The notes below the pieces were generated by a model that saw nothing but the letters and a program-made list of their open reading frames with translations, searched no databases and had not been told where the DNA came from. Below are positions 22,293 through 26,744 of a DNA stretch of 42,808 nucleotides, piece by piece. A program made the translations under genes and the position numbers. Source of the DNA: Myxococcota bacterium (lineage in GTDB: Bacteria > Myxococcota_A > Polyangia > Polyangiales > Houyiibacteriaceae); contig JANQQS010000092.1 of NCBI GenBank assembly GCA_028284955.1, forward strand, positions 1 through 42,808, read 5' to 3'. Numbering within the stretch: the stretch's first letter is position 1; each line of letters opens with the position of its first letter.

Positions 22293-23930
22293 ATGGTGAG
22301 CAGCACCGACGAGCTTCGCGTCGAGAGCGACGAGCTCAGCGATTTCCCAAGAGCATTTGTAGTGGTGGACCAGTCGCGGACAACGACCGTTGTCGACTTG
22401 CCCGCCAACTCCAAGTTCGTCGTGAGCGCAACTCCGAACGCGAACTTGGTGCTCGATGAATCGTCGCAAGATTCTCGCTGTACCCTCGAATGGGACGGCG
22501 AATCGGTCACCCTCGAACACGACGGCGGCACCGCGTTCGTTAATGGCAAGCGTTTCTCGGGCCGAGCAGAGCTCAAACCGGGAGACGAAGTCACCCTGGG
22601 CACGGCACGACTGGTGCTTGGAGTCTCGGTTCCGTTGACCGCGGGAGGCCGCCGCGCGCTCACCCACCATGAATTTCGCGAACGCATGTATGAAGAAGTG
22701 GCGCGAGCGGCTCGGGGAAATCGCCCCACCGCAGTGGTCATGGTTCAGGCCAAGTCGGGCGAAGGCGGCCACTTGACCGCCACTGCACTGAATACGTTCC
22801 GCGCGGGAGACGTGGTCGCGACATATGCGCCAGACGAGCCCGAGTTTCTCCTTCCGGACACGCCGATCGAAGAAGCTCATGCCGTGGTCAAACGGATATT
22901 GGAAACCGCGGGCACAGAGGCGGCGATCGGAATCGCGGTGGCGCCCAACGACGGAACCAACCCCGAACGGCTTCTCCGCGCGTCCCGCGACGCCCTCCAC
23001 GAAGCGCTCCGTCAAAACACCAGCGTCAGCTATTCGACCAACCCAAGAACCCCCCAGCAAGATCTCCCAGAAGCCCACGACCCAACCAGCATTGCGCTAT
23101 CCGAGCAGGTAAAGCAGCTCGCGCGGGAGGATACCTGGCTCATTTTCGTCGGCGAGATGAGCAGCGGCAAAGGACTCTTCGCTCGGCTTCTTCATCAGGA
23201 AAGCGGTCGCCATCCATTCGTGGTGTCGGCATGCGCATCGATCACCACGCCAACCGAAGCGGCCCGCCAGTTTGGACCCGAAGGCGCCGCCAACCATGCG
23301 CGTGGGGGCACGCTTTTGCTCGACGAAGTGGGCGACCTGCCGAGCTTTGCCCAAGAACACTTGCTCTCGTTTCTTGAACGATCCGCCGCTGAGCTCCGCG
23401 TCGTCAGCACCACGCATCGCGCGCTCGCCGGGCTTGTCGAACGTGGCGCATTCAACTCCACGCTGTACCGAATGCTCGCTGGCCAAGTGCTCGATGTTCC
23501 TTCGCTGCGGGCCCGCCCCGAAGACATCATTCCCCTCGCGACCCACTTTGCCAAACGTACAGGCGCGAACCACGTTCGTTTTTCCGCCGGCGCGATCGCG
23601 CGACTGCGCAGCTATCCGTGGCCAGGAAACGTGCTCGAACTACGCAACGCAATGGATCGCGCAGCGCGCCTCGGCAGAGACGGAGAGATTCTTGCCGAAC
23701 ACCTTCCGAACGACCCCATGCCCATCGCATCTGGCGCGGGCCGACTTCGCGAACACGTCGACAGCGTAGAACGCGACGCGATCATCAAGGCGCTTGCCGA
23801 CAGCAACCACAACCAAACCCACTCCGCGAGACGACTCGGCATCAGCCGGCGGGCGCTGATTTACAAAATGGAAAAGTACGGCTTGAAGCGCCCGCCTCGG
23901 ACCGCGAAAAAACAGGCGCCCGCCGACTAG
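22293..23930 (+). CDS. FHA-AAA+-Fis regulator lacking the GAFTGA loop
   Basis: A 545-residue regulator. Residues about 20-112 resemble an FHA phospho-peptide-binding domain (FVNGKRFSGRAELKPGDEVTLG, in part). Residues about 125-250 look like a degenerate GGDEF-type fold without an active-site motif. An NtrC-like AAA+ domain follows, with Walker A-like GEMSSGKGLFARLL near 286 and Walker B GGTLLLDEVGDLP near 338. The sigma-54-contacting GAFTGA loop is missing: FGPEGAANHARGG runs straight into Walker B. The C-terminus is a Fis helix-turn-helix (NQTHSARRLGISRRALIYKM). The protein probably does not activate sigma-54 and, like TyrR, may work on another polymerase form. The ATG at 22293 follows GAAGGA. 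Confidence 0.85.
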   Translation: MVSSTDELRVESDELSDFPRAFVVVDQSRTTTVVDLPANSKFVVSATPNANLVLDESSQDSRCTLEWDGESVTLEHDGGTAFVNGKRFSGRAELKPGDEVTLGTARLVLGVSVPLTAGGRRALTHHEFRERMYEEVARAARGNRPTAVVMVQAKSGEGGHLTATALNTFRAGDVVATYAPDEPEFLLPDTPIEEAHAVVKRILETAGTEAAIGIAVAPNDGTNPERLLRASRDALHEALRQNTSVSYSTNPRTPQQDLPEAHDPTSIALSEQVKQLAREDTWLIFVGEMSSGKGLFARLLHQESGRHPFVVSACASITTPTEAARQFGPEGAANHARGGTLLLDEVGDLPSFAQEHLLSFLERSAAELRVVSTTHRALAGLVERGAFNSTLYRMLAGQVLDVPSLRARPEDIIPLATHFAKRTGANHVRFSAGAIARLRSYPWPGNVLELRNAMDRAARLGRDGEILAEHLPNDPMPIASGAGRLREHVDSVERDAIIKALADSNHNQTHSARRLGISRRALIYKMEKYGLKRPPRTAKKQAPAD

Positions 23931-24629: not shown

Positions 24630-25256
24630 GTGCAAGATCGCTTGCCCGCAAAGAAGGATGTCGCGCGCGCGCTGCTTCTTCGAGGCAGCGTGTTCGTGCA
24701 TCTCGATCCGAGGCTCGACAGCGTCAGCGTGCCGTCTTGGCTCGTCCAGCAGCCTCAGCTTGTGCTGCAAGTCGGCCTCGACATGCCGATTCCTATTCCA
24801 GACCTCAAGGTGGACGATTCAGGCATCTACGGAACGCTCTCGTTCAATCGTTCCTCGTTTACGTGCGAAGTAAGCTGGGATGCCGTCTTCGCGCTCACGG
24901 GAGAAGACGGGCGCGGCATGGTCTGGCCCGAGTCGATGCCCGAGGAGATCGCGGCCGAAGTCGAAAGAGGGAACACTGCCAAGGGAATGAGAGCTGCCGA
25001 GCAGGGCAACAAGCCCGCGGAACCGGGAACGCTGGCTGAACCCGAACTCTCCCTCGAACGCCCAACGCCCTACGACGACGACGAAGCGACACCAAGCGCC
25101 GGAGTGCAACTGAGCTTGCTCAAAAACACCCAGCCCGCGGACACCCCACCTGTGCTCTCCCCGCCCTCCGACGCTTCGCCGCCTTCAACGAGCCGCAAAC
25201 CAAAATCGAAAAACGCTAAGCGAGAGCTGCCTCCCTACCTTCGCATCGTAAAATAG
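24630..25256 (+). CDS. sspB: SspB-type ClpXP adaptor
   Basis: A 208-residue homologue of the ClpXP specificity-enhancing factor SspB. The folded N-terminal domain spans about residues 10-115 (VARALLLRGSVFVHLDPRL, then QPQLVLQVGLDMPIPIPDL, GTLSFNRSSFTCEVSWDAVF). A disordered acidic/Pro-rich linker follows, then the basic C-terminal tail ELPPYLRIVK, which matches the ClpX-docking end of E. coli SspB (ALRVVK). It should tether tmRNA-tagged proteins to ClpXP. The start is GTG at 24630 after AGGAG; an ATG at 24626 is out of frame. The tmRNA gene lies 0.5 kb downstream and clpP 2.4 kb upstream. Confidence rests on both the domain pattern and the tail. Confidence 0.87.
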   Translation: MQDRLPAKKDVARALLLRGSVFVHLDPRLDSVSVPSWLVQQPQLVLQVGLDMPIPIPDLKVDDSGIYGTLSFNRSSFTCEVSWDAVFALTGEDGRGMVWPESMPEEIAAEVERGNTAKGMRAAEQGNKPAEPGTLAEPELSLERPTPYDDDEATPSAGVQLSLLKNTQPADTPPVLSPPSDASPPSTSRKPKSKNAKRELPPYLRIVK

Positions 25257-25463
25257 CGCAACGGAAATAGCGCAAACTGGAAACCGCGAAATAAGCGGCG
25301 AGGCCGAAACCGGGAAGCGGAAACCACCCACGGAACCGAAGCGACGGATCGGTGCGAACACCTCCGCAACGTCAGCCACCGGCAATTTGTGGGACAACAT
25401 ACGCGCTTCCTACTCCGCGATTCTCACCACCAATCGGGTCGAGTAAGCCCATTCATCACACTC

Positions 25464-25482
25464 GTGAAATCCTACTTTTCAC
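25464..25482. promoter_or_regulatory. Candidate upstream activator site
   Basis: An inverted repeat GTGAAA-N7-TTTCAC, with its centre about 85 bases upstream of the predicted start of the small RNA. This is a suitable distance for an enhancer-binding protein acting on the sigma-54 promoter at 25532-25549. The assignment is inferred from symmetry and position only. The preceding 200 bases (25257-25463) contain no recognised gene. Confidence 0.4.
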
Positions 25483-25531
25483 TTTCGAAGAAGTTCGACC
25501 ACCAGCGATCACAAAATGATTGAACAATCGG

Positions 25532-25549
25532 CTGGCACGACTCTCGCAT
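25532..25549 (+). promoter_or_regulatory. Sigma-54 (-24/-12) promoter
   Basis: CTGGCACGACTCTCGCAT matches the sigma-54 consensus TGGCACG-N4-TTGCA with a single mismatch in the -12 block (TCGCA). The GG at 25534-25535 and GC at 25546-25547 have the required 12-base spacing. Transcription would start near 25557-25560. It faces the hairpins of the small RNA and the terminator at 25614-25654; no protein gene follows within that interval. Confidence 0.8.
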
Positions 25550-25558
25550 AAGCCAAGT

Positions 25559-25654
25559 ACGTCCTTCGCAGCGCGTTCTCCCCCCCTCCGCGTTGCCATA
25601 AGGACCTATCGACAGCCCGCACGCGTACCCCCCCTTCGCGTGCGGGCTTTTTTT
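25559..25654 (+). ncRNA. Candidate sigma-54-dependent small RNA with twin C-rich loops
   Basis: The predicted transcript is about 96 nucleotides from the sigma-54 start to the T run. Hairpin 1 has an outer stem GTCCTT/AAGGAC (25561-25566 with 25600-25605) and an inner 8-bp stem (25568-25575 with 25589-25596) closing the loop TTCTCCCCCCCTC. Hairpin 2 is the terminator stem, with loop TACCCCCCCTT. Both loops present C7, able to pair with G-rich ribosome-binding sites. C-rich loops are a known seed type in regulatory RNAs, and Myxococcus xanthus Pxr is a precedent for a sigma-54-driven small RNA. Homology to Pxr was not tested. No open frame with a ribosome-binding site lies inside. Confidence 0.7.
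25614..25654 (+). terminator. Intrinsic terminator of the small RNA
   Basis: A perfect 12-bp stem AGCCCGCACGCG (25614-25625) with CGCGTGCGGGCT (25637-25648), an 11-base C-rich loop, and seven T at 25648-25654. This is the strongest Rho-independent terminator in the window. It stops transcription 110 bp before tmRNA, so tmRNA needs its own promoter in 25655-25764. Confidence 0.93.
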
Positions 25655-25764
25655 ATGGCGTTCGGAGAAGGCACCGTTGCATCACGCGAACGACGACCCC
25701 ATAGTGTGAGGATCGCTGATTCGGCATTGGCCGATGTAGCGATGATCTTTGAAAGAAAAATCAT

Positions 25765-26132
<368 letters not shown>

Positions 26133-26136
26133 TTCT

Positions 26137-26420
26137 CGGGAGGGGGATTAACCCCCCTCCCGCCCACTGGGCAGAGCCCAGCGGGACCCACCCTCCCCAC
26201 CGCTGCGCCTTCGGCTTGCGTCCCCACCGCGGGGCGGCGGGGCCCCTTTTTGCGCTTCGGTTGAGCCCCATGCGGTGGTTGACGTTCGTGGTGGCGGGTG
26301 GGCGCGGTTGCCTCTCTGCTGCAGCGCTGGGACAAGGCTACCCAGCAGGTGCCTCCTGGCGGGGGAGCTTGGGTGAATCGGCGGGATTGTATTCCGCCGA
26401 GAGGGTTTGGGTGCCAAACC
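26137..26420 (+). repeat. Structured dispersed element, copy B (after tmRNA)
   Basis: The element starts five bases after tmRNA with a T-rich stretch, like copy A after yajQ. Hairpins are 26137-26162 (10-bp G/C stem), 26163-26185 (CTGGGC-AGA-GCCCAG with outer pairs), 26379-26399 (9-bp stem, loop TGT) and 26401-26423 (GAGGGTTTGG-GTG-CCAAACCCTC). Positions 26354-26414 align with the complement of 25-90: TCCTGGCGGGGG, AGCTTGGGTGAATCG, hairpin, GAGAGGGT-TGGGTG. The two hairpin stems differ but remain paired. The middle (26186-26350) has little likeness to copy A. No gene is supported here. Confidence 0.75.
26184..26242 (+). repeat. 59-bp direct repeat, copy 1
   Basis: A 59-bp sequence beginning GGACCCACCCTCCCC and ending CGGGGCGGCGGGG. 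It recurs at 26435-26493 with one base change (TTCGG against TTTGG). It lies inside structured element B. Confidence 0.92.
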
Positions 26421-26434
26421 CTCAAACAACCGAC

Positions 26435-26493
26435 GGACCCACCCTCCCCACCGCTGCGCCTTTGGCTTGCGTCCCCACCGCGGGGCGGCGGGG
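26435..26493 (+). repeat. 59-bp direct repeat, copy 2
   Basis: Second copy of the 59-bp sequence, 251 bp downstream of the first and differing at one position. From 26494 to 26744 no gene, RNA or further copy of the element was recognised. Confidence 0.92.
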
Positions 26494-26744
26494 GCCTCTG
26501 GGGTCGTTCGATGCAGTGGCGTTGCGACTCACTTCGTGGGGCGGCGGGAATTGAATTCGTTCGGGCACGTTCTGCAACACGGTGACGTTGCACGCCTTTC
26601 CGCCTGGGCCTTCGAAGTAGCCGACGCCTTCGCCGTCTATCCCGTCCCCATCAGTCCCCGCTGTTCCTCCGCGTTGAACCCGATTCTTGGAGACATTCTG
26701 GAGCCACTTGGACCTGGGAACATTCCTGGAATAGCTTGCCGCGC

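Follow-up and report, generated by a model that had tools for sequence, protein, structure and literature searches.

Predicted sigma-54-type small RNAs with two C-rich hairpin loops form an uncatalogued family in the myxobacterial order Polyangiales

We analysed a stretch of 42,808 nucleotides (nt) from a Houyiibacteriaceae genome of the order Polyangiales (hereafter the window; the genome is labelled G000). On its forward (+) strand, between an sspB-like gene and the gene of the transfer-messenger RNA (tmRNA), lies what is probably a free-standing small RNA gene, the twin C-loop RNA, belonging to a family that is spread through this order. A previous sequence-only reading had proposed a single sigma-54-driven small RNA at this place; the observation is larger than that claim, since it concerns an uncatalogued RNA family and not one locus. 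A search of the window against Rfam returned the tmRNA as the sole match at the gathering score, and the twin C-loop RNA matched no Rfam family. A literature search, made largely without subscription journals, found no published description of the family.

The RNA is predicted to occupy positions 25559-25654 (about 96 nt), with the transcription start (+1) near 25559 and the 3' end within a T-run. A sigma-54 (-24/-12) promoter, TGGCACGACTCTCGCA, is located upstream at 25533-25548 with a consensus score of 14.5 out of 15.5; its GG-N10-GC spacing is right, as the sequence-only reading had stated, and the single departure from TTGC is a C for T that is also seen in many members of the family. Most members have this promoter element upstream. 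In the predicted fold, hairpin 1 (25557-25609), whose outermost pairs fall just 5' of the predicted +1, carries seven C in its loop (25580-25586) followed by UCC, while hairpin 2 (25614-25648), which is also the stem of the terminator, carries seven C at 25628-25634. The T7 run of the intrinsic terminator is present in the sequence at 25648-25654. The segment 25555-25660 folds with -46.1 kcal/mol, compared to -25.9 +/- 3.1 kcal/mol for shuffled sequences (z -6.6), and none of the 200 shuffles was equally stable, which confirms the earlier claim of two stable hairpins, each exposing a C7 loop, and a terminator. A covariance model of the family matches positions 25548-25656 with an E-value of 8.9e-6 in the search of this genome, and a second copy of the RNA is located in contig C29 of the same genome (C29:35469-35579).

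The family was recovered with patterns and a covariance model. A pattern that leaves the promoter out (C6, spacer, C6, spacer, T6) matches 53 of the order's 184 genomes and had few matches when reversed as a control; the matched loci, when folded, mostly show the same two-hairpin architecture with a strong sigma-54 element upstream. A stricter script gave 75 entries, 50 of them non-redundant after a length filter. The covariance model, built from 13 members and extended to 88 matches, finds the RNA in 67 of the 184 genomes and 40 of the 84 genera of the order, and in 23 of the 34 genomes of the family Houyiibacteriaceae; outside the order, within a phylum sample of 379 genomes, one genome has a match. 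Because the E-values are only rough and weak matches are lost in the fast filters, the counts should be read as approximate and are probably underestimates. A DNA similarity search with stretches of 197 and 297 base pairs (bp) found only the window itself because the stems diverge too fast. Outside the order, a promoter-based pattern had some matches that resembled chance hits or coding sequence, and the one examined from the f41 group differs in architecture from the twin C-loop RNA. The number of copies reaches 11 per genome, and there are tandem arrays in which every copy has its own promoter. One array of about nine genes, each with a sigma-54 promoter of its own, was seen at L155 (G074:C1:9571000-9578000). 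As a separate observation, one genus of the family has a related-looking C-loop RNA without a sigma-54 promoter (L180, L181, L062), and a third C-loop hairpin is found in its sspB-linked copy (L063, L107).

The analysis of the sequence variation indicates that the stems are free to change provided that pairing holds, whereas both loops keep a run of 5 to 10 C. In the alignment of 88 rows, which was fitted to the structure, 93.8% of the cells are paired compared to 55.9% in shuffles, and all 20 modelled pairs show changes on both sides. A control independent of this fit, in which the 5' arm of one member was combined with the 3' arm of another, gave only 45-46% standard pairs, and an unfitted MAFFT alignment of 13 members shows double changes at 13 of the 20 pairs. 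The C run has 5-10 residues in hairpin 1 and in most cases 6-9 in the loop of the terminator, and UC or UCC frequently follows it; CCUCC, the core of the anti-Shine-Dalgarno sequence, occurs in about a third of the loops. The comparison with relatives gave the covarying stems, C-rich loops and shared promoter that the sequence-only reading had looked to for support.

Several of our searches relied on the promoter, and for a clean test of promoter and enhancer we therefore considered only matches found by RNA structure alone. A sigma-54 element scoring at least 13.5 lies within 110 nt upstream of 18 of the 23 non-redundant structure-only matches, compared to 1.7% of the controls (1149 windows from the same loci), and an enhancer motif is present in 19 of the 23, compared to 2.3% of the controls, with one of the misses due to masked sequence. 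This motif, a palindromic site of the form TTKCA-N4-TGMAA, is found on almost all members and is usually paired. With half of the members used for training and the remainder for testing, it reaches a median of 14.9 bits compared to 4.2 bits in dinucleotide shuffles, and 49 of 56 held-out cases exceed the 95% level. The second sites are mostly 21-22 bp off, and the best sites lie near -57, -67, -78, -89 and -100; these positions are one helical turn apart, and the sites are thus phased to the DNA helix.

In the window there are two enhancer-like sites 21 bp apart: site 1, ATCACACTCGTGAAAT, at 25455-25470 (left half weak; 6.5-6.6 bits, also when held out), which is at -78 from the -24 element and in phase with the family, and site 2, TTTTCACTTTCGAAGA, at 25476-25491 (9-10 bits), at -57. 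Taken alone they are unremarkable (p 0.09 for a single site, 0.01 for the pair), yet they fall on the grid of the family. The symmetric GTGAAA-N7-TTTCAC that had been noticed at 25464 is indeed there, but it is not a single dyad; it consists of the facing halves of two sites, the right half of site 1 and the left half of site 2. Together with the rpoN gene of this genome (G000:C143:873-2318), the -24/-12 element and the upstream sites make up the predicted layout of a sigma-54-dependent gene. The recurrence of the family, its covariation, its promoter and its enhancer motif go beyond what chance would give and support the proposal of a sigma-54-type, enhancer-driven small RNA with two C-rich loops that is kept among relatives.

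We propose that the sigma-54 promoter and the helically phased pair of enhancer sites would drive the synthesis of an RNA made up of two long hairpins, of which the second serves as terminator, and that a putative enhancer-binding protein would switch it on upon a signal. Both exposed C loops would then contact G runs in mRNAs, probably within or close to a G-rich Shine-Dalgarno region, and this contact would block or alter translation without Hfq; the working models are Myxococcus Pxr and Helicobacter RepG. As regards the targets, the proposal draws on the analogy with these two RNAs (PMC5684412, PMC5568312, PMC8295292) and on the CCUCC found in the loops. A search of 12 carriers of the RNA found no Hfq. 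Taken as a whole, we consider this explanation likely.

The neighbours of the RNA differ in how well they are conserved. In 16 Houyiibacteriaceae genomes, the present one among them, an RNA copy adjoins sspB and is either downstream of it in the same orientation or convergent to it; here the sspB-like gene (ClpXP adaptor; weak match to the SspB family, NF008764, E 3e-6) lies at 24630-25256 (+). In 8 of these 16, this one counted, there is nearby a regulator with FHA, AAA+ sigma-54-interaction and Fis-HTH domains (here 22293-23930, +; Pfam PF14532, PF00158, PF02954), in which no response-regulator domain was found. No GAFTGA motif, the motif that contacts sigma-54, is recognisable in this regulator or in the full-length relatives read (L126, L128). 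The tmRNA gene, ssrA (25765-26129, +), is a neighbour here but stands outside the conserved unit: in relatives sspB separates it from the RNA, so that its position next to the RNA is a local feature of this genome. In relatives, the 450 bp directly upstream of the tmRNA contain no such RNA, which first seemed a refutation; the RNA sits across sspB. Of the proposed setting beside ribosome-rescue genes, the sspB neighbour is conserved and the link to tmRNA is not supported. No neighbour of the other RNA copies is common across the family. As to the tmRNA itself, its tag is ANTNGHIALAA, in contrast to ANDNAxALAA in the five relatives that were read, and a GC-rich direct repeat of 62 bp (26184-26245 and 26435-26496, 97% identical) lies just 3' of it.

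Several known RNAs share part of this organisation. C-rich loops pair with Shine-Dalgarno regions in RNAIII and the Rsa RNAs of Staphylococcus and in RNAs of alphaproteobacteria, but their sequences and promoters are unrelated to those described here and their loops are usually UCCC or CUCC, with no long C runs. GlmY and GlmZ of enterobacteria are small RNAs whose expression depends on sigma-54 and enhancer-binding proteins, as is predicted for the twin C-loop RNA; they and the Qrr RNAs of Vibrio differ from it in having no twin C loops and in acting via Hfq or RapZ. The Qrr RNAs, too, are described as small RNAs under the control of sigma-54 and an enhancer-binding protein (PMC10162802). In RepG of Helicobacter pylori, the C/U-rich loop of the terminator hairpin is the seed that pairs with the G-repeats of an mRNA leader (PMC8295292); this RNA has a single C/U-rich loop and belongs to another phylum, and the sources read describe no comparable sigma-54 promoter pair for it.

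The closest known RNA is Pxr, from Myxococcus and its relatives (Cystobacterineae). Pxr acts as a gate of multicellular development in Myxococcus, and it shares an upstream sigma-54 promoter, a length of about 100 nt and a terminator hairpin (PMC5568312, PMC5684412). Loop 1 of Pxr is C6, and a single change of C to A abolishes its function; Pxr also has tandem paralogues with promoters of their own, some of them with two long stem-loops (PMC5684412, PMC5568312). The C-run in the first hairpin loop, C7 in our case, has its counterpart in the Pxr loop as folded from published oligonucleotides. Pxr has three stem-loops of which only the first (SL1) is shown to be C-rich, whereas both hairpins have C7 here; its terminator loop is UCUCUU-like rather than C-rich, and it adjoins the two-component genes pxrK/pxrR instead of sspB, the FHA/AAA+/Fis regulator and tmRNA. 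The twin C-loop RNA might nevertheless be an ortholog or deep relative of Pxr that exerts the same restraint on a life-cycle switch, a view compatible with our explanation, which we hold only tentatively. Its best local match, CTGAAGGT..TTCCCCCC in L070, speaks for it, but the similarity of the members to Pxr SL1 is not significant over 59 tests, and the pattern of the Pxr core (SL1/SL2) was found neither in this genome nor in the other 378 of the phylum sample, which may not include Myxococcus. The likeness to Pxr suggested by the sequence-only reading thus holds for the architecture, while homology is not demonstrable by sequence; because the Pxr terminator loop is not C-rich and sequence kinship could not be shown, we describe the RNA as Pxr-like in layout and do not class it as Pxr.

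A different role, in which an RNA-binding protein with affinity for C would use the two loops as a decoy or platform and the loops would not be antisense seeds, seems to us unlikely, although several features fit it: near-homopolymer loops would discriminate poorly between targets, the presence of two loops in each RNA and of copies in tandem is suggestive of titration, and the Hfq search that found none and the G runs that are not enriched at starts in this genome point the same way. We know of no C-binding regulator of such a kind in these bacteria, and the precedents of Pxr and RepG favour pairing. The position of the hairpins just 3' of sspB and 5' of the tmRNA could also mean that they merely form a terminator pair and 3' untranslated region for sspB, or belong to the leader of ssrA. 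This is very improbable, given that many copies are far from both genes, that sspB is convergent in some genomes, that the RNA has its own promoter and enhancer, and that a terminator stands between it and the tmRNA. We give next to no credence to a short protein gene: an open frame of 93 amino acids is listed at 25520-25801, but base-paired covariation extends throughout, the stem sequence is free, the C runs vary in length and the terminator lies inside the frame.

Several results weigh against a sigma-54-dependent RNA that pairs with mRNAs through its C loops. The transcript is a prediction from sequence, and the enhancer sites of the window rank among the weaker ones of the family. The FHA/AAA+/Fis regulator, considered as the activator, is not an obvious one because no GAFTGA motif is recognisable in it. 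About two thirds of the genomes of the order gave no match under the strict filter, so the family may not be universal in it. The G-rich leaders expected as targets found no support in a bulk test of this genome, where GGGGGG-N3-12-ATG is not enriched (231 compared to 278 in the reversed control); in eight relatives it is enriched 1.6-2.9 fold over the reversed control, and this enrichment does not track the presence of the RNA. The bulk result may still be compatible with a few specific targets.

The family is a defined and widespread group of RNAs in bacteria whose best-studied regulatory RNA is Pxr, the targets of which are still mostly unknown. According to published work, Pxr arose within a single suborder, and the distribution of the twin C-loop family renders this claimed recent origin testable. 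It is possible, though we would not favour it, that both branch from an ancient class of C-loop RNAs in myxobacteria, driven by sigma-54 and enhancers, whose members act as gates of lifestyle switches under a common enhancer-binding protein, without Hfq, and with expansion into arrays in some large-genome species; if so, Pxr would not have arisen late in a single suborder. The activator of the family becomes findable through the conserved enhancer site, and the near-homopolymeric loops raise the question of how specificity arises without Hfq.

Elsewhere in the genome, contigs C156, C159, C171 and C177 contain four dispersed, near-identical stretches, CCCCCCACGGAATACGATTCCGCGGGGCC..CTGTTTTTT, that resemble a repeated terminator.
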